64,000 nucleotides of DNA from Lacinutrix sp. WUR7 (GTDB lineage Bacteria > Bacteroidota > Bacteroidia > Flavobacteriales > Flavobacteriaceae): positions 2,304,001-2,368,000 of the forward strand of contig NZ_CP045067.1 in NCBI RefSeq assembly GCF_016864015.1, in the 5' to 3' direction. Under the pieces are notes generated by a model that did not search any database, was not told the DNA's origin, and was given only the letters and a program-made list of their open reading frames with translations. Every line of letters starts with the position of its first letter. The first letter of the stretch is position 1. Positions 18,254-58,580 of this stretch are shown here, piece after piece. The position numbers were made by a program, and so were the translations under genes.

Positions 18254-18275
18254 ATTCCTGCGAAGGCAGGAATCT
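18254..18275. repeat. REP-like palindrome ATTCCTGC-GAAG-GCAGGAAT
   Basis: An 8-base perfect inverted repeat with a 4-base loop, followed by CT. The same element with one loop base changed occurs at 58526-58548 after rpoC. Confidence 0.6.
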
Positions 18276-18305
18276 TATAATTTAAAAGTTAAAGTTAAAG
18301 TTAAA

Positions 18306-20108: not shown

Positions 20109-20250
20109 CACGTAGTTTCATCCTGAACTGGTTTCAGGATCTCACCAAATAAAACTAAATCACAATCCCAAAGCAATTCCTTCTCTTATTTCAAGGGAAG
20201 GTGGATTTGCCTTTTTCTCATAATGCTAAATTCGGAAGGGTTTTTAAAGC

Positions 20251-23564: not shown

Positions 23565-23584
23565 ATTTCCGTGAAAACGGAAAT
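23565..23584. repeat. REP-like palindrome ATTTCCG...CGGAAAT
   Basis: Seven-base perfect arms around TGAAAA, followed by CTTTTT. It lies between the divergent starts at 23549 and 23743. Same family as 31233-31252 and 58636-58655. Confidence 0.55.
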
Positions 23585-23602
23585 CTTTTTATTTATTGTT
23601 AT

Positions 23603-23630
23603 TGTCACACTGAGCGCAGTCGAAGCGAAT
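23603..23630. repeat. GAGCGCAGTCGAA intergenic repeat, copy 1 of a pair
   Basis: TGTCACACTGAGCGCAGTCGAAGCGAAT. A second copy starts 56 bases later in the same orientation. Confidence 0.6.
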
Positions 23631-23658
23631 CTAGGAATCTGTGTTTAATTAATTATTC

Positions 23659-23684
23659 TGTCATGTTGAGCGCAGTCGAAACAT
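23659..23684. repeat. GAGCGCAGTCGAA intergenic repeat, copy 2 of a pair
   Basis: TGTCATGTTGAGCGCAGTCGAAACAT-type copy. It shares TGTCA, TGAGCGCAGTCGAA and flanking bases with copy 1. Confidence 0.6.
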
Positions 23685-23730
23685 CCTGATTATTTTGCTG
23701 TATCACTTCGTTCTAATTAACAAGTTTAAT

Positions 23731-27285: not shown

Positions 27286-27316
27286 AAAGCCTTTAGATTT
27301 TTTCTAGAGGCTTTTT
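27286..27316. terminator. Bidirectional terminator between convergent genes
   Basis: AAAGCCTTTAG pairs with CTAGAGGCTTT (one G-T pair) around a T-rich loop, with T-runs on both strands. The right end overlaps the namZ stop region. Confidence 0.7.
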
Positions 27317-28631
27317 ACTTATACAATAAATAGGCTTGTCGCATGGCATTATAAGTTGCTAAACCTTTAACCCAAGTTTTCTTAATCTCGTAAGCTGTAT
27401 GTTGGTTTTCAATTTGTTTTTGTAGTTTTCTAGTTCCAGCTAGCTTGGTAAAGAAGTTGTTGAAAAATGTTTCCTTTTTTTCTGTAGCCTGATACGCTTC
27501 AATAATATAGTTAAGGTCTAATCTGCTTAAATACTTACTAGTGCTTAAATCCATACCATAACAGACTTTGTTTTCATGTTTTGGGTACTTAGATCCTTCG
27601 TTTGGTTTTGGTGTAAAGGTATAAGTATACGGAAACATTTCAGTGTCTAAAAAAGGACTGCCAAATATTTGAAACTGCTTATCTGTTCCTCTACCAGCAC
27701 TTACGTTTGTTCCTTCAAAAAAGCATAAGCTAGGATATAAGTTTATAGATTTTGCATTAGGTAAGTTTGGAGAAGGTTTAATTGGTAATTCGTAAACCGT
27801 ATCGTGTGTGTAATTTTGCATTGCAATTACAGTAATATCACATTGTACACCATGCTCTAACCATTTTTCACCATTAATCATTTTAGCATATTCAGCAATA
27901 GTCATTCCGTGCACCACAGGAATAGGATGCATACCAACAAAACTTTTGTGTTCCATTTCTAAAATAGGACCATCAATATAATGCCCATTTGGATTTGGTC
28001 TATCTAAAATCAATACTGGAATATTAGCTTCTGCACAAGCTGCCATCACATAATGTAAAGAAGAAATGTAGGTGTAAAAGCGTGCGCCAACATCTTGAAT
28101 GTCAAAAATAACAAGATCTAAATCCTTAAGCTGTTCTACTGAAGGCTTTTTGTTTTTACCATATAGCGAAACAATTGGTAATCCTGTTTTGGTATCTATA
28201 CCATCTTTAACTACTTCCCCAGCATCCGCAGTTCCTCGAAAACCATGCTCTGGAGCAAATACTTTTTTTACATCCACTTTTAATGCGATTAAAGAATCTA
28301 CAAGGTGTGTGTATGTGTCATTGCGAGGAGCTTTTTGCGACGTGGCAATCTCATTCTTGTTACCTTTAAATATCACACTAGTCTGATTGGCAACAATACC
28401 AACACGTTTTCCGTTTAGTAAAGGTAAATAGGCTTCGGTTTGATTTGCACCAAGAATTAATTCTTTGCTAATAATCTGCTGTATGCTATCCTGCTGCCCT
28501 TGTAGAAGGATCTCGTTTTTAGCCATAACTTCCATATTAGAACTGCTAGCTTCAGATTTTGCCTTACTTCCGCAAGAAATTAATACCAAAACAAATAATA
28601 AAACTGTATTTTTGAAAACATTAAATCGCAT
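27315..28631 (-). CDS. namZ: DUF1343 family, NamZ-like exo-beta-N-acetylmuramidase lipoprotein
   Basis: A lipoprotein signal (LLFVLVLISCGSK) precedes the DUF1343 domain, for which members are characterised as exo-beta-N-acetylmuramidases releasing MurNAc from peptidoglycan chains. Blocks seen are GKRVGIVANQTSVI, VKKVFAPEHGFRGTADAGE, LPIVSLYGKNKKPS, DLVIFDIQDVGARFYTYI, ILDRPNPNG, HGMTIAEYAKMINGE and SAGRGTDKQFQIFGSPF. The residue run NEIATSQKAPRND (about 93-106) interrupts the segment between NQTSVI and THLVDSL and is encoded by an intergenic-type repeat (28315-28352). The start lies 8 bases from the divergent permease gene. Confidence 0.85.
   Translation of the reverse strand: MRFNVFKNTVLLFVLVLISCGSKAKSEASSSNMEVMAKNEILLQGQQDSIQQIISKELILGANQTEAYLPLLNGKRVGIVANQTSVIFKGNKNEIATSQKAPRNDTYTHLVDSLIALKVDVKKVFAPEHGFRGTADAGEVVKDGIDTKTGLPIVSLYGKNKKPSVEQLKDLDLVIFDIQDVGARFYTYISSLHYVMAACAEANIPVLILDRPNPNGHYIDGPILEMEHKSFVGMHPIPVVHGMTIAEYAKMINGEKWLEHGVQCDITVIAMQNYTHDTVYELPIKPSPNLPNAKSINLYPSLCFFEGTNVSAGRGTDKQFQIFGSPFLDTEMFPYTYTFTPKPNEGSKYPKHENKVCYGMDLSTSKYLSRLDLNYIIEAYQATEKKETFFNNFFTKLAGTRKLQKQIENQHTAYEIKKTWVKGLATYNAMRQAYLLYK
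28315..28352. repeat. TCATTGCGAGGA...CAATCTC repeat inserted inside namZ
   Basis: On the plus strand, TGTCATTGCGAGGAGC and GGCAATCTC flank a short middle. The same ends recur in the intergenic copy at 32206-32243. Here it is read in frame on the minus strand as part of NamZ. Confidence 0.7.
28607..28614 (+). promoter_or_regulatory. Candidate -7 promoter element for the permease gene
   Basis: TATTTTTG is an exact TAnnTTTG match, 25 bases before the TTG start at 28640. It lies inside the signal-peptide coding region of the divergent namZ gene. Confidence 0.4.
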
Positions 28632-29900: not shown

Positions 29901-29926
29901 AGTCTCAGTCTCAGTCTCAGTCTCAG
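29901..29926. repeat. TCAGTC hexamer tandem repeat (about 4 copies)
   Basis: A run of TCAGTC units inside a longer element (29888-29946) that ends with GTTCGGTCTTCCATCTAG. Part of a family also present at 15085, 34191 and, inverted, 54110. Confidence 0.75.
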
Positions 29927-30039
29927 TGTTCGGTCTTCCATCTAGTTAATCTTTCTCTGTGAAAACTCGGCAATTCTCTGTGTAACTCAGTGAAATGGTT
30001 TTTCAAGAATATGCAAGCCAGCAGAAGTTTTTTGATACG

Positions 30040-31232: not shown

Positions 31233-31252
31233 ATTTCCGTAACGGCGGAAAT
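31233..31252. repeat. REP-like palindrome ATTTCCG...CGGAAAT
   Basis: Seven-base perfect arms around TAACGG, followed by CTC, between the cystathionine beta-synthase gene and its terminator. Confidence 0.55.
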
Positions 31253-31276
31253 CTCAAGAAACAAAATTAAATCATA

Positions 31277-31383: not shown

Positions 31384-32103
31384 CTAAGGATTCGTAGACC
31401 ATAAAGCAGCACTTTTAAGCATCGCTCTTCTTGGTAAGTTTAATCCAGCAACTATTAATTCTGCAAAATCATCAGGTTGTAAAACGCTATCTTCCGAATC
31501 TTTACTTGCAATACCTAAATCTATTGACATATCTGATGCGATAGTACTTGGTGTTAATGTGCACACTCTAATATTGTTTTTACGGACTTCCTTCATTAAA
31601 GATTCCGACATACCAATAACTGCAAATTTAGATGCCGAATATGCAGAGGTAGTTGCATTTCCAGATAAACCAGCAGTAGAAGATATGTTTATAATATCTC
31701 CTTCATTTTTATCTATTAAATAAGGTAAAACCTCTTTAGTAACATAATACATTCCCATTACGTTGGTTTGTATTATCGCACTCCATTGTTCTACATCCAT
31801 TTCATTTAAAGTACCAAAAGCAGCAATTCCTGCATTGTTTACCAAAATATCTACAGATCCAAGTGCATCTACTAAATCTTTAACTCCTTTTTTTACTTCG
31901 TCATAATTACCAACATCAAAAACCGCATAAACAGCGTTTACACCTAAAGCTTTTATTTCGGCAACGGTTTCTTTTAAAACTGCTTCGTTTCTACCTGTTA
32001 TAGCTACATCTATTCCTTCTTTGGCAAATGCAATTGCAGTTGCTTTTCCTAGGCCTCTTCCTCCTCCAGTAATTATTGCTTTTTTATTTTTTAATTTTTT
32101 CAT
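31384..32103 (-). CDS. Short-chain dehydrogenase/reductase, 3-oxoacyl reductase type
   Basis: A classical SDR of 239 residues. It has the NAD(P) motif TGGGRGLGKA near residue 12, DILVNNAGIAAFG near 87, the catalytic serine in NISSTAGLSGNATTSAYSASKF and the Y-x-x-x-K that follows. The length and the AITGRNEAVLKETV segment fit the FabG-like 3-oxoacyl reductases. Substrate cannot be assigned. It is a single gene, convergent with the cystathionine beta-synthase gene and separated from it by a bidirectional terminator. Confidence 0.9.
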   Translation of the reverse strand: MKKLKNKKAIITGGGRGLGKATAIAFAKEGIDVAITGRNEAVLKETVAEIKALGVNAVYAVFDVGNYDEVKKGVKDLVDALGSVDILVNNAGIAAFGTLNEMDVEQWSAIIQTNVMGMYYVTKEVLPYLIDKNEGDIINISSTAGLSGNATTSAYSASKFAVIGMSESLMKEVRKNNIRVCTLTPSTIASDMSIDLGIASKDSEDSVLQPDDFAELIVAGLNLPRRAMLKSAALWSTNP

Positions 32104-32205: not shown

Positions 32206-32243
32206 TGTCATTGTGAGGAGCAAAAGGAACAAGTCAATCTCGT
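32206..32243. repeat. TCATTGtGAGGA...CAATCTC intergenic repeat
   Basis: Starts TGTCATTGTGAGGAGC and ends GTCAATCTCGT. It has the same ends as the copy inside namZ. It lies in the gap 32104-32321 together with other unexplained sequence. Confidence 0.65.
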
Positions 32244-32321: not shown

Positions 32322-32810
32322 TCACGCTGTAATTGTTACTCCATCTTTCATTTCAATAGCCGTAGGTTTTTCAAACCAGGATTCCATAAAATCAAAGTTT
32401 TCTTGGGTTACTTCAAATTCAAAAGTGTCTCCTTTTTCTTCGTTTCTTTTTAATACGCGTTCTAGTCTAGTTTTTTTACTAATATCTAAAAAATGGGTTT
32501 TAATTTCAAAACCATGTTTTGAAGCAAATTTTCTAAACTTTGCACGATGCGAAAATTTAGAAAGCCCTAAATCTAGAATGGCATCGGTATTGCCGTTTTC
32601 TAGTTGTGTTACCAAATCTAGAATAATCATTTCAGCTCTTTCAATACGTTCTAAAAACCAATCTAATCCATCTTCCGTTTTCTTATCCGCGAGAAATAAA
32701 GTATTGTTCCAGGTGTCTATAGAAAAGAGAATGCCTTTGGTTTCTTTCTTTAGTTGGTTGGAGTAGGTGGTTTTTCCGGAACCTGTGTTGCCTATAATGA
32801 GGTGGATCAT
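32322..32810 (-). CDS. P-loop ATPase/kinase, AAA_33-like
   Basis: The protein of 162 residues starts with a P-loop (IIGNTGSGKTTYSNQL, Walker A) and FSIDTWNNTLF. ERAEMIILDLVTQLENGNTDAILDLGLS follows, typical of small nucleotide or zeta-toxin-like kinases. A lid region, THFLDISKKTRLERVLKRN, has the arginine pairs seen in such kinases. I see no antitoxin-like neighbour, so a toxin role is not supported. Substrate is unknown. Confidence 0.75.
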   Translation of the reverse strand: MIHLIIGNTGSGKTTYSNQLKKETKGILFSIDTWNNTLFLADKKTEDGLDWFLERIERAEMIILDLVTQLENGNTDAILDLGLSKFSHRAKFRKFASKHGFEIKTHFLDISKKTRLERVLKRNEEKGDTFEFEVTQENFDFMESWFEKPTAIEMKDGVTITA

Positions 32811-32916: not shown

Positions 32917-34188
32917 ATGATAGAAAATTTTCTACATTATATTTGGCAATACAAAAAATTTGCGCTAACCAATTTACAGACAGTCGCACAAGAACCTGTT
33001 TCTGTGATACAAGTTGGTGCGCACAACCATAATACGGGACCAGATTTTTTTAATGCACAAATTAAAATTGCCGACCAACTTTGGGCAGGTAATGTAGAGA
33101 TTCATATAAAATCTAGTGATTGGTTTTTACACAACCATGAGCAAGACAAAAATTATGATAGTGTTATCCTGCATGTAGTTTGGGAGCATGATACTGAAAT
33201 ACACCGAAAAGACAATACCGTAATTCCAACTTTAGTTCTTAAAGATGTGGTTAGTAAAACGGCTTTACAGAATTATCAAAAGCTGTTTAGTAAAAAACAA
33301 AAATGGATCAATTGTGAAAACGATTTTGCAAGTATCAGTGATTTTGTGGTAAGCAATTGGTTAGAGCGTTTGTACTTTGAACGTTTAGAACGAAAATCTA
33401 CAGCAATTACACAATTACTGCAATCCAGTAAGAATAATTGGGAAGCGGTTCTTTTTAAAATGCTTGCTAAAAACTTCGGGCTAAAAGTAAATGGCGATGC
33501 TTTTTTAAGTCTTGCGAGTTCGTTCCCTTTTAATTTAGTGCAAAAGCTACACGCCAAACAAACTAGTTTAGAGGCTTTGCTTTTTGGACAAGCAGATTTG
33601 TTAGATAAGGATGTCCAAGATTTGTATTATCTAGAACTTAAAAAAGAATATCAGTTTTTAAAACAAAAGCATAACTTGTCTGGTGCAACCGTAATTCCTT
33701 TTCAGTTTTTTAGATTACGACCTCCAAATTTTCCTACCATTCGTATTTCACAACTAGCAAGTGTATATGCTACGCAAAGTAGTTTGTTTTCAAAAATAAT
33801 TTGCGCAACTAGTAAAGCAGAAATTTATAACTTGTTTACCGTTGTTACTTCTTCATATTGGGAAATTCACTTTACGTTTGGTAAAGTTTCTAAAGCATCT
33901 AAAAAAAGAATTACAAAGTCGTTTATAGATTTACTTATTATAAATACCATTGTGCCTATTCAGTTTAGTTTTGCAAAACAACAAGGAAAAGAGCTAACGG
34001 ATGCCATTATTAGTATTATTCAAGAGATAGCTTCCGAGAAAAATAGCATTGTTACCAAATTTCAAGATCTAAAACCTTTAGGGAATTCTGCTATGCATAG
34101 TCAAGCATTATTGCAGCTTAAAACCGAATATTGTGATAAAAATAAATGTTTGCAATGTGCAATTGGAAGCAGTTTGATAAAGAGGTAA
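32917..34188 (+). CDS. DUF2851 family protein
   Basis: The start MIENFLHYIWQYKKF at 32917 matches the family's usual N-terminus; an in-frame ATG at 32902 adds MYFSI and overlaps a TACTTTAG promoter-like element. The conserved block VIQVGAHNHNTGPDFFNAQIKI...WAGNVEIHIKSSDWFLHNH...YDSVILHVVWEHD is the family hallmark. It recalls a nuclease-like E-x-D-x-x-x-x core, but no activity is known to me. The C-terminus contains CDKNKCLQCAIG, a short cysteine cluster. It is followed by a tandem TCAGTC repeat. Confidence 0.85.
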   Translation: MIENFLHYIWQYKKFALTNLQTVAQEPVSVIQVGAHNHNTGPDFFNAQIKIADQLWAGNVEIHIKSSDWFLHNHEQDKNYDSVILHVVWEHDTEIHRKDNTVIPTLVLKDVVSKTALQNYQKLFSKKQKWINCENDFASISDFVVSNWLERLYFERLERKSTAITQLLQSSKNNWEAVLFKMLAKNFGLKVNGDAFLSLASSFPFNLVQKLHAKQTSLEALLFGQADLLDKDVQDLYYLELKKEYQFLKQKHNLSGATVIPFQFFRLRPPNFPTIRISQLASVYATQSSLFSKIICATSKAEIYNLFTVVTSSYWEIHFTFGKVSKASKKRITKSFIDLLIINTIVPIQFSFAKQQGKELTDAIISIIQEIASEKNSIVTKFQDLKPLGNSAMHSQALLQLKTEYCDKNKCLQCAIGSSLIKR

Positions 34189-34190
34189 GT

Positions 34191-34260
34191 TCAGTCTCAG
34201 TCTCAGTCTCAGTCTCAGTCTCAGTATTCAGTCCCAGTATTCAGTCACAGTATTTAGTGG
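34191..34260. repeat. TCAGTC hexamer repeat plus CAGTATT units
   Basis: Bases 34191-34224 are TCAGTC repeated nearly six times. They are followed by three CAGTATT-containing units. It starts 2 bases after the DUF2851 stop. The rest of the gap to 34425 shows no gene. Confidence 0.8.
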
Positions 34261-38329: not shown

Positions 38330-39499
38330 ATGAACAACATGTACTTCACAGAAGAGCATCAATTATTTAGACAAAGTTTACAAGACTTCTTAAAAAAAGA
38401 AGTGGTTCCACATATAGATAAATGGGAAGAAACTGGAACTGTAGAACGTTTCATTTGGAAGAAATTCGGAGAAATGGGTTTCTTTGGTTTAGCATATCCA
38501 GAAGAATATGGCGGATTAAACCTAGATTTATTCTACACTGTTATATTGTTAGAAGAATTACAAAAAATAAACTCTGGCGGATTTGCAGCTAATATTTGGG
38601 CACATACCTATTTAGCAATGACGCATGTTAATAAAGAGGGAAGCCACGAAATAAAAGAAAAATATTTAACAGCAAGTATTACTGGAGATAAAATAGGTTG
38701 TCTTTGTATTACAGAACCTTTTGGTGGATCGGATGTTGCAGGAATGCGTACAACAGCAATTAAAAAAGGAGATACGTATGTACTTAATGGTTCTAAAACA
38801 TTTATTACAAATGGGGTGTATAGTGACTATTTAGTAGTTGCTGCTAAAACAGATCCAGAAGCAGGACATAACGGAATGAGTATGTTTATCATGGATAGAG
38901 ATACACCAGGAATCTCTGCTACTAAACTAGATAAATTAGGATGGAGAGCAAGTGATACTGCAGAAATTGCTTTCGATAATGTAACCATTCCTGCAAGTAA
39001 TTTAATGGGTGAAGAAGGAAAAGGTTTTCCGTATATCATGCAACATTTTGCTTTAGAGCGTTTAATTATGGGAATTAATGCACACGCAAGAGCAGATTAT
39101 GCTTTAGAGTATGCAAGACAATATATGAGTGAACGTACCGCATTTGGAAAAACAATAGACAAGTTTCAAGCATTACGTCATAGCTTTGTAGATCTGTATG
39201 CCGATATGGATATGTGTAGAGAATATAACTACTCGGTGGCTAACAGACTTAATAACGGGGAGTATGTGGTAAAAGAAGCAACCATCTCTAAATTGAAGTC
39301 TACAAAAATGGCAGATGAGGTTGCATATCAATGTATGCAGTTTTTAGGAGGTTATGGTTATATGGAAGAATATCCAATGGCACGACTTTTGCGTGATAGC
39401 AGACTAGGACCAATTGGTGGAGGAACAAGTGAAATTCTTCGTGAGATTCTCGCTAAAATGGTAATTGATAAGAAGGAGTATAAGCCTGCTGCAAAATAA
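38330..39499 (+). CDS. Acyl-CoA dehydrogenase
   Basis: This 389-residue flavoenzyme shows CITEPFGGSDVAGMRTTA (FAD/acyl contact), DTPGISATKLDKLGWRASDTAEIAFDNV, the helix RTAFGKTIDKFQALRH and QCMQFLGGYGYMEEYPMARLLRD with the catalytic glutamate region. It ends with GPIGGGTSEILREILAKMVIDKKEYKPAAK. It oxidises acyl-CoA to enoyl-CoA, feeding electron-transfer flavoprotein; chain length is unknown. ATG 38330 is used; ATG 38339 is three codons in. Copies of its own 3' end follow at 39534 and 39627. Confidence 0.93.
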   Translation: MNNMYFTEEHQLFRQSLQDFLKKEVVPHIDKWEETGTVERFIWKKFGEMGFFGLAYPEEYGGLNLDLFYTVILLEELQKINSGGFAANIWAHTYLAMTHVNKEGSHEIKEKYLTASITGDKIGCLCITEPFGGSDVAGMRTTAIKKGDTYVLNGSKTFITNGVYSDYLVVAAKTDPEAGHNGMSMFIMDRDTPGISATKLDKLGWRASDTAEIAFDNVTIPASNLMGEEGKGFPYIMQHFALERLIMGINAHARADYALEYARQYMSERTAFGKTIDKFQALRHSFVDLYADMDMCREYNYSVANRLNNGEYVVKEATISKLKSTKMADEVAYQCMQFLGGYGYMEEYPMARLLRDSRLGPIGGGTSEILREILAKMVIDKKEYKPAAK

Positions 39500-39533
39500 A
39501 CTGATTATTATTTTAGCGAAAATTATATAATAA

Positions 39534-39585
39534 TCTCGCTAAAATGGTAATTGATAAGAAGGAGTATAAACCTGCGGCGAAATAA
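39534..39585 (+). repeat. Second copy of the acyl-CoA dehydrogenase 3' end
   Basis: This 52-base copy matches 39448-39499 (the last 52 bases of the gene). It encodes the same ending AKMVIDKKEYKPAAK with three differences, all at synonymous third positions. It has no promoter or start of its own. An inverted 10-base partner (ATTTTAGCGA, near 39510-39519) lies upstream. Confidence 0.85.
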
Positions 39586-39589
39586 TTCC

Positions 39590-39637
39590 ATTACCATTTT
39601 CACTAAAATTGTAGCCCAATTTTGATGAAATGGTAAT
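39590..39637. repeat. Imperfect inverted repeat between tail copies 2 and 3
   Basis: Bases 39590-39611 pair with 39617-39637 (about 20 bases, one insertion and one or two mismatches). The arms contain the AAATGGTAAT word of the tail copies, so the third copy is part of a hairpin. Confidence 0.6.
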
Positions 39638-39671
39638 AGATTCCAAAGTATATAAACCTGCTGAAAAATAA
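39627..39671 (+). repeat. Third, diverged copy of the acyl-CoA dehydrogenase 3' end
   Basis: In frame it reads EMVIDSKVYKPAEK then stop, clearly related to the gene's C-terminus KMVIDKKEYKPAAK. The remaining sequence to 39811 shows no gene. Confidence 0.75.
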
Positions 39672-39811
39672 TTTCAGTAGTATTTTAAAAATCGCTACAT
39701 TGTTTTTTTACAAAATAATGTGGCGATTTAAGAATTCCTTAAGATGAAATACTAATTAGTATTCCAAATCGTTAACTAAGAAAATGGCCCTGAAACTATT
39801 AAACTTATACT

Positions 39812-41240: not shown

Positions 41241-41417
41241 TTGGGCAAATGCTCCTTCGCTAAAGCAAACCAACTTTATCATTTACAACTAAGTAATAAG
41301 ACTTTAAATTATTTAAGCAAGGCATCTATATGCTCCAAAGCTTTAGCGAAGGAGCACCACGCTTTCACTACTCGCTTTTTTATGAAAAATAAAAAGAGCT
41401 CAAACAATTAGCCTGCG
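41241..41417. repeat. Structured intergenic element, copy B
   Basis: It starts TTGGGC. A perfect 16-base stem (41251-41266 with 41340-41355) encloses a 73-base loop. Then come CACGCTTTCACTACTCGCT, a second hairpin with T-run and A-run arms, GAGCTCAAACAATTAGC and TGCG. The order of parts equals copy A at 30040-30133, while the first stem differs in sequence and length. Confidence 0.6.
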
Positions 41418-41437
41418 TTGAGCGCAGTCGAAACGTT
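41415..41437. repeat. GAGCGCAGTCGAA intergenic repeat
   Basis: GCGTTGAGCGCAGTCGAAACG directly abuts copy B of the structured element. Confidence 0.55.
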
Positions 41438-41520
41438 CAATCCTTTTTGCAGAATACTACAGTTATTGATCTTTTATTCAGTAATTTAGAATCTCATTTT
41501 TTTAAACGTAAAAGTGTTAA

Positions 41521-41583
41521 ACAAATGTTAATGTATAGAATATTTTCTATATCTTAGAAAATATTCTATACATTAACATTTGT
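41521..41583. repeat. 63-bp perfect palindrome upstream of the cassette
   Basis: The 29-base arms 41521-41549 and 41555-41583 are exact reverse complements around TATCT. The inner arm words are TATAGAATATTTTCTA and its partner. It ends 14 bases before the ATG at 41598. No U-tract follows, so it is not a normal terminator; it could be an operator, a cruciform or an mRNA hairpin. Confidence 0.9.
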
Positions 41584-54109: not shown

Positions 54110-54172
54110 AGGTCGCAGTATTCGGTTAGCTTTAATTGGATAACGGAATACTGAGACTGAGACTGAATACTA
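54110..54172. repeat. Inverted TCAGTC-family repeat between rpoB and rpoC
   Basis: The reverse complement reads AGTATTCAGTCTCAGTCTCAGTATTCCG, split here: TCAGTC units and two CAGTATTC words. CAGTATTCGGTTA (54116-54128) and TAACGGAATACTG (54141-54153) can also pair with one mismatch. No terminator T-run follows. Confidence 0.65.
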
Positions 54173-58525: not shown

Positions 58526-58548
58526 ATTCCTGCGCAGGCAGGAATCTC
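58526..58548. repeat. REP-like palindrome ATTCCTGC-GCAG-GCAGGAAT
   Basis: Eight-base perfect arms, followed by CTC. Same element as 18254-18275. Confidence 0.6.
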
Positions 58549-58580
58549 TTAATTTGAAACGAAAGTTTTGATATAATAAT

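Follow-up and report, generated by a model that had tools for sequence, protein, structure and literature searches.

The namZ gene carries two REP-derived segments

The window analysed here, a 64,000-nucleotide stretch of the genome designated G000, belongs to a marine member of the Flavobacteriaceae; its named homologues put it in the Oceanihabitans/Lacinutrix group. It contains on its minus strand the gene namZ (27315 to 28631), encoding an exo-beta-N-acetylmuramidase of 438 amino acids with homology to PDB 4jja. The protein is intact, with the Pfam domains NamZ_N (E = 2e-81) and NamZ_C (E = 7e-33) and a signal- or lipobox-like N terminus, and its homologues are encoded by a single uninterrupted open frame in nearly all relatives. 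Two segments of the gene are REP-derived. One is a TGTC-tagged A-type REP, TGTCATTGCGAG...GCAATCTCA, at 28316 to 28353, with a 36-bp core (GTCATTGCGAGGAGCTTTTTGCGACGTGGCAATCTC on the plus strand, 28317 to 28352) that the tag bases TGTC...CTCA extend to its full length; the core is translated from the minus strand as EIATSQKAPRND (residues 94 to 105). The other, a diverged E-type 27-mer at 28488 to 28514, is read from the minus strand as EILLQGQQD (residues 40 to 48) in the linker that follows the lipobox.

An earlier sequence-only reading of this DNA had described the A-type copy as an intergenic repeat read in frame, with a partner in a nearby gap. It translated the minus strand correctly as NEIATSQKAPRND, between NQTSVI and THLVDSL. 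Both copies that it listed, at 28315 to 28352 and 32206 to 32243, are real, with ends that were placed 1 to 2 bases off. The gap copy is an intergenic A-type REP at 32206 to 32241 (32207 to 32241, with TGTC starting at 32206 and CTCG as its 3′ end), lying between an SDR gene (31384 to 32103, minus strand) and a P-loop ORF of 162 amino acids (32322 to 32810, minus strand). No ORF of at least 90 amino acids spans it. An E-type REP, GAGATCCTGAAACCAGTTCAGGATGAA, was also found between genes on the minus strand at 20117 to 20143 (genome positions 2324117 to 2324143), with no overlapping ORF.

The similarity of the two A-type copies exceeds chance: the pattern GTCATTGNGAGG-N8-30-CAATCTC matched twice in the window and never in 100 dinucleotide shuffles. 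Searching the whole 3.99-Mb genome for the repeat ends, as the sequence-only reading had proposed, gave three strict A-type copies, one of them inside namZ and the third at 3395170, again intergenic, and the reversed-pattern control gave 0. Five E-type copies are present in G000. The coding copies number three (NamZ loop, NamZ linker, and MenE), a lower bound because strict patterns overlook diverged copies such as that in the NamZ linker. These data come from 0.8 Mb in spaced stretches together with whole-genome pattern searches; a relaxed palindrome scan, allowing one mismatch in the outer bases, returned 54 control hits and was too noisy for copy counts.

Several other repeats were observed in the window. 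A palindromic repeat, ATTCCTGCG(A/C)AGGCAGGAATCT, occurs at 18254 to 18287 and 58526 to 58559 in copies that are 88% alike, and a repeat with the core TTGAGCGCAGTCGAA occurs at 23588 to 23624, 23644 to 23703 and 41417 to 41455. Palindromes of the form TTTCCGT...CGGAAATC, possibly a further REP family, lie near gene ends at 23567 to 23590 and 31237 to 31257. There is a perfect inverted repeat at 41521 to 41583, with arms of 29 bp separated by 5 nt, an 86-bp unit present three times head-to-tail, 65 to 80% alike, at 39448 to 39705, and short intergenic runs of (AGTCTC)n in both orientations (29901 to 29935, 34187 to 34233, and inverted at 54137 to 54166).

The insert is absent from most NamZ homologues and lies in a loop predicted to be disordered

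The sequence-only reading expected NQTSVI and THLVDSL to be nearly adjacent in the family, and the NQTSVIF-THLVDSL loop is indeed short in most of about 100 NamZ loci, its length being variable throughout the family. In the alignment that it had suggested, the 13 residues formed a gap in PDB 4jja and in most homologues, and three of six congeners lack the segment. Of the two outcomes that the sequence-only reading named as refuting it, neither occurred: distant homologues do not have these residues, and the DNA copies resemble each other more than chance allows. Its interpretation is thereby supported. The exact loop peptide is also found in congener G003, and a version with two substitutions in G002. 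G001 has a degenerate version of the same length. In G004 the loop is different and shorter, and the site is empty in G005 and G006. A-type elements of 36 and 48 nt, in phase 0, occupy the same loop in two other genera, Flaviramulus (L013 and L068) and NBU2973 (L086). For the copy in G000 the A-type score was 29, the highest null score being 20.

The AlphaFold2 model of NamZ has a mean pLDDT of 81.9, with values below 50 at residues 7 to 54, 92 to 104 and 134 to 140, and the first two of these stretches are the two REP segments with their surroundings. The REP segments thus fit disordered loops in the model, although a shallow alignment at the insert would lower pLDDT too. Downstream of the insert, NamZ remains under purifying selection, with 31 synonymous and 11 non-synonymous codon differences from G003. 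The predicted tryptic peptides across the insert are NEIATSQK and TECHAELVEASHFK.

For the linker, the own segment NEILLQGQQD (28488 to 28514) reached an E-type score of 3.5 (empirical p = 0.003). It is diverged and was recognised mainly via G005, which counts against the explanation that we prefer below; the orthologous segment there is a clean palindrome, GAGATGCTTCAACCAGCGCAGCATGAC, read as NEMLQPAQHD. For the E-type 27-mer, ten NamZ homologues scored higher than the maximum of 312 codon-shuffled controls, each with its match in phase 0 of the coding strand. Their peptides co-vary with the DNA stem: EILNQVQDD has a C-G pair, EILKQVKND T-A and EMLRQAQHD G-C, such that the residue pairs I..D, I..N and M..H track the stem pairs. 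Such pairing of Met with His, and of Ile with Asp or Asn, is not what selection acting only on the protein would produce.

The same repeats are read in frame in other genes across the family

A third coding REP in G000, an E-type read in the other orientation, encodes HAELVEAS in MenE. This segment is a gap compared with PDB 4gs5; G000, G004 and G003 have it, G002 has lost part of it to a deletion, and G001, G005 and G006 lack it.

Among 301 genomes of the family, A-type elements were found in 35 and E-type elements in 128 (up to 66 per genome), and the reversed-pattern controls gave 0 in every genome. Sampled REPs form multiple dispersed copies that are mostly intergenic. In samples of GAG-ended copies drawn irrespective of genes, 10 of 85 (about 12%) lay in frame within ORFs of 233 to 959 amino acids; these were 3 of 28 A-type and 7 of 57 E-type copies, one of the seven being the NamZ case already known. 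The hosts in relatives include PurL, TrpF, BioF, LeuS, HsdS and a GHMP kinase. For PurL, the same REP site is used in two genera, and the adjacent segment VIAxxxKQS reads like a second REP, which suggests a head-to-head dimer. The GYDIA-family GHMP kinase (L200, 1090 to 2061, minus strand) contains an E-type REP peptide twice, as NEMLKQVQHDET and as NEILKQVQHDET.

We also read the TrpF loop that precedes IEIIKVFSI in 64 further genomes, where its length ranged from 8 to 50 residues. Recognisable REPs of four types were present in seven of these loops and, with two genera from the pattern search, in about nine genera, all in frame; the assignment in G126 is based on a short core motif only. The REP-bearing fraction is no population estimate, since the first 30 loci had been taken as the top matches of a query that itself carries a REP. 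In G134 (L315), three different REPs are translated in tandem, and in G131 (L329) one REP lies within the interior of another and is followed by a third, again in frame. As a separate observation, the core GAGCGCAGTCGA of the window repeat at 23588, 23644 and 41417 is read in frame in TrpF of G035 (QFERSREPND) and G131 (QFERSREQND).

We rate at about even the chance that, in Flavobacteriaceae, several unrelated REP families have landed repeatedly in specific loops of conserved enzymes (the TrpF loop and the NamZ linker and loop), that tandem and nested insertions lengthened the loop in TrpF from some 8 residues to 50, and that REP insertion is a main source of new protein sequence there.

Intragenic copies use stop-free, mostly hydrophilic frames

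The E-type element, at 27 nt, has a length divisible by three; of its six frames, three are open. The 13 intragenic E-type reads used two of these, E-I/M-L-K-Q-V-Q-D-D and H-A/S-E-L-V-S-A/E-S, and none used the third, the hydrophobic VMLNLFQHL (probability 0.005 if frames were equal), a tally that serves as a guide only, as some copies at shared sites may be non-independent. All A-type intragenic reads were EIAxSxx..PRND; in the own copy this frame, with a mean hydropathy of −1.45, is more hydrophilic than any other. Surviving intragenic copies are thus restricted to stop-free, mostly hydrophilic frames. Most of the elements sampled from G303 have TAG at the end where others have GAG, a change that places a stop in the frame that is read from GAG-ended copies, and 0 of 30 sampled copies were intragenic; this combination is suggestive (p of about 0.02, from a single genome).

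Origin of the NamZ insert

The block is very probably a CGTC/TGTC-tagged REP of the form CGTC or TGTC, a stem starting with AT, a loop and CTCA, acquired in a surface loop of namZ by an ancestor that belonged to the Oceanihabitans-like genus, and translated ever since. Observed directly are the repeat itself in the DNA, the related species that share it, the homologues that lack it and its reading in frame; the disorder of the loop that holds it is a model prediction. Insertion itself would have been roughly frame-blind, with the present copies being what selection left. To survive, a copy would need to keep the frame, carry no stop, be hydrophilic enough and lie in a loop or linker that tolerates a change in length, and later drift or in-frame deletion could then trim it, as may have happened to the G004 NamZ and the G002 MenE. 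Such a filter could likewise account for MenE here and for PurL, TrpF, BioF, LeuS, HsdS and the GHMP kinase in relatives.

Against this account stands that neither transposition nor a duplicated target nor an enzyme able to mobilise the element was seen, and with only three strict A-type and five E-type copies in G000, it is not visibly active there. The Y1/RAYT domain PF01797 was not detected in G000, and a local RAYT as the mover in this genome was therefore rejected; 117 of the 301 genomes of the family have the domain, as do 5 of the 14 controls, E. coli among them. Across the family, the association between Y1 and E-type elements was weak (odds ratio 1.9, p = 0.009, uncorrected for phylogeny), 24 of 54 genomes with at least 10 E-type copies had no Y1_Tnp, and no strict REPs were found near six Y1 loci. 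Given that no Y1/RAYT was detectable in the own genome, the likeliest guess would be that copies were moved in trans by an enzyme that has since disappeared, or by errors of replication or repair at hairpins. The sequence-only reading suggested a mobile element; the dispersed distribution points to past movement, and no transposition or dedicated transposase was seen. Its suggestion that the element makes coding sequence holds only in the sense that inserted DNA becomes lasting loop sequence.

Alternative explanations for the insert

That an ordinary variable loop merely happens to look like an intergenic repeat is extremely improbable. The length of the NamZ loop does vary across the family, but the shuffles, the score relative to its null, the absence of control matches in 301 genomes and the parallel cases in many genes all speak against it, and chance similarity was rejected by the shuffled sequences, the reversed pattern and the codon-shuffled genes. 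The NamZ element is identical at 36 of 36 nt between G000 (28317 to 28352) and G003 (L313), next to 42 differences in 140 downstream codons (30%). Such identity has a probability of about 0.01 under uniform divergence, and simple inheritance with drift, as in our preferred explanation, leaves it unexplained. Set beside the downstream divergence, it favours some recombination or constraint, although chance is also possible.

Constraint would be expected if the inserted peptide had been exapted, giving NamZ (or MenE, or TrpF) a useful property and being maintained because selection acts on the protein or on a DNA or RNA hairpin. Besides the identity, this would agree with the MenE element, which differs only synonymously among G000, G004 and G003 (GCT/GCA and GAA/GAG), HAELVEAS being constant. 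We nevertheless regard exaptation as improbable, given that the segment has been lost or trimmed in close relatives (NamZ in G004, MenE in G002) and is degenerate in others, that it is predicted to be disordered, and that the same loops hold unrelated REPs in other genera. A recent homologous recombination of a short tract from the G002/G003 clade into G000, with the sister G004 showing the older state, is a better candidate, though still an unlikely one. Codon trees place G000 and G004 as sisters, and G002, joined by G003 in the MenE tree, branches next; G004 is without the element, and the match between G000 and G003 extends over about 52 nt. However, one loss in G004 would be no less simple an account, so short a tract does not allow a formal test, and the degenerate version of the same length in G001 points to an older insertion. 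The element was therefore either gained before the split of G000, G004, G002 and G003 and cut down in G004, or brought into G000 by recombination.

Comparison with known repeat systems

In-frame palindromic repeats in genes are best known from Rickettsia. We found no report of coding REPs in Flavobacteria among open-licence papers. In-frame REPs as such are known from the Rickettsia palindromic elements and from the survey of Di Nocera et al. 2013 (PMC3733652); new here are the lineage and the host genes, and the repeated landing at the same loops, for which the evidence is unusually strong. The Rickettsia-type phenomenon is thereby extended to a large free-living bacterial family with hundreds of comparable genomes, and whether selfish DNA builds protein loops becomes directly testable, with dated gains and losses and natural pairs of orthologues with and without the insert. 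For annotation, peptides such as EILKQVQDD, HAELVSAS and EIATSxxPRND in Bacteroidota proteins should be read as REP-derived and not as conserved motifs.

CGTC- and GTAG-tagged REPs have been described in five or more phyla, some of them intragenic and in frame (Di Nocera et al. 2013, PMC3733652); a term search of that paper for Flavobacter* returned no named host. The tag of such REPs is CGTC, or else TGTC or CCTC. The own copy carries TGTC, and CGTC or TGTC is present in 24 of 28 A-type and 54 of 58 E-type copies sampled from the family, which indicates that these flavobacterial elements belong to the CGTC-tagged superfamily. Shared with it are the CGTC/TGTC end, dimers, in-frame intragenic copies and the lack of a dedicated transposase, none having been found for CGTC REPs either (PMC3733652). 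The stem starting with AT and the 3-nt tail are alike as well, closely in the E-type and loosely in the A-type. The E-type structure, GTC-ATGCTGAA-CTTGT-TTCAGCAT-CTC, fits an AT-starting stem of 8 to 9 bp, a loop of 4 to 5 nt and a 3-nt tail. A-type elements, including the NamZ copy, meet this rule only loosely, as they have a 5-bp outer stem and a long, variable interior in place of 4- to 5-nt loops, and the tail is CTC(A) instead of CCA. Different REPs at about the same site were reported for recB of two Xanthomonas species (PMC3733652), an example that the several REP types at one flavobacterial loop exceed.

The GTAG-tagged REPs of the RAYT/TnpA-REP system (REPINs) are likewise short dispersed palindromes that form dimers and clusters, but the tag here is CGTC or TGTC, G000 is without Y1_Tnp, and the association with Y1 in the family is weak. 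A further parallel is that drawn by the sequence-only reading, with the Rickettsia palindromic elements (RPE-4, RPE-6 and RPE-1). The comparison is apt in that the CGTC/TGTC tag is shared with the superfamily that includes two elements of R. conorii, RPE-4 (CGTC-4) and RPE-6 (CGTC-1) (PMC3733652). The hosts here are free-living marine Flavobacteriaceae and not an obligate intracellular alphaproteobacterium, the own genome has far fewer copies, and the likeness is set by description and not by an RPE consensus. In both systems, palindromes are read in frame in unrelated conserved genes, here NamZ, MenE, PurL, TrpF, BioF, LeuS, HsdS and the GHMP kinase, and the genes are left intact.
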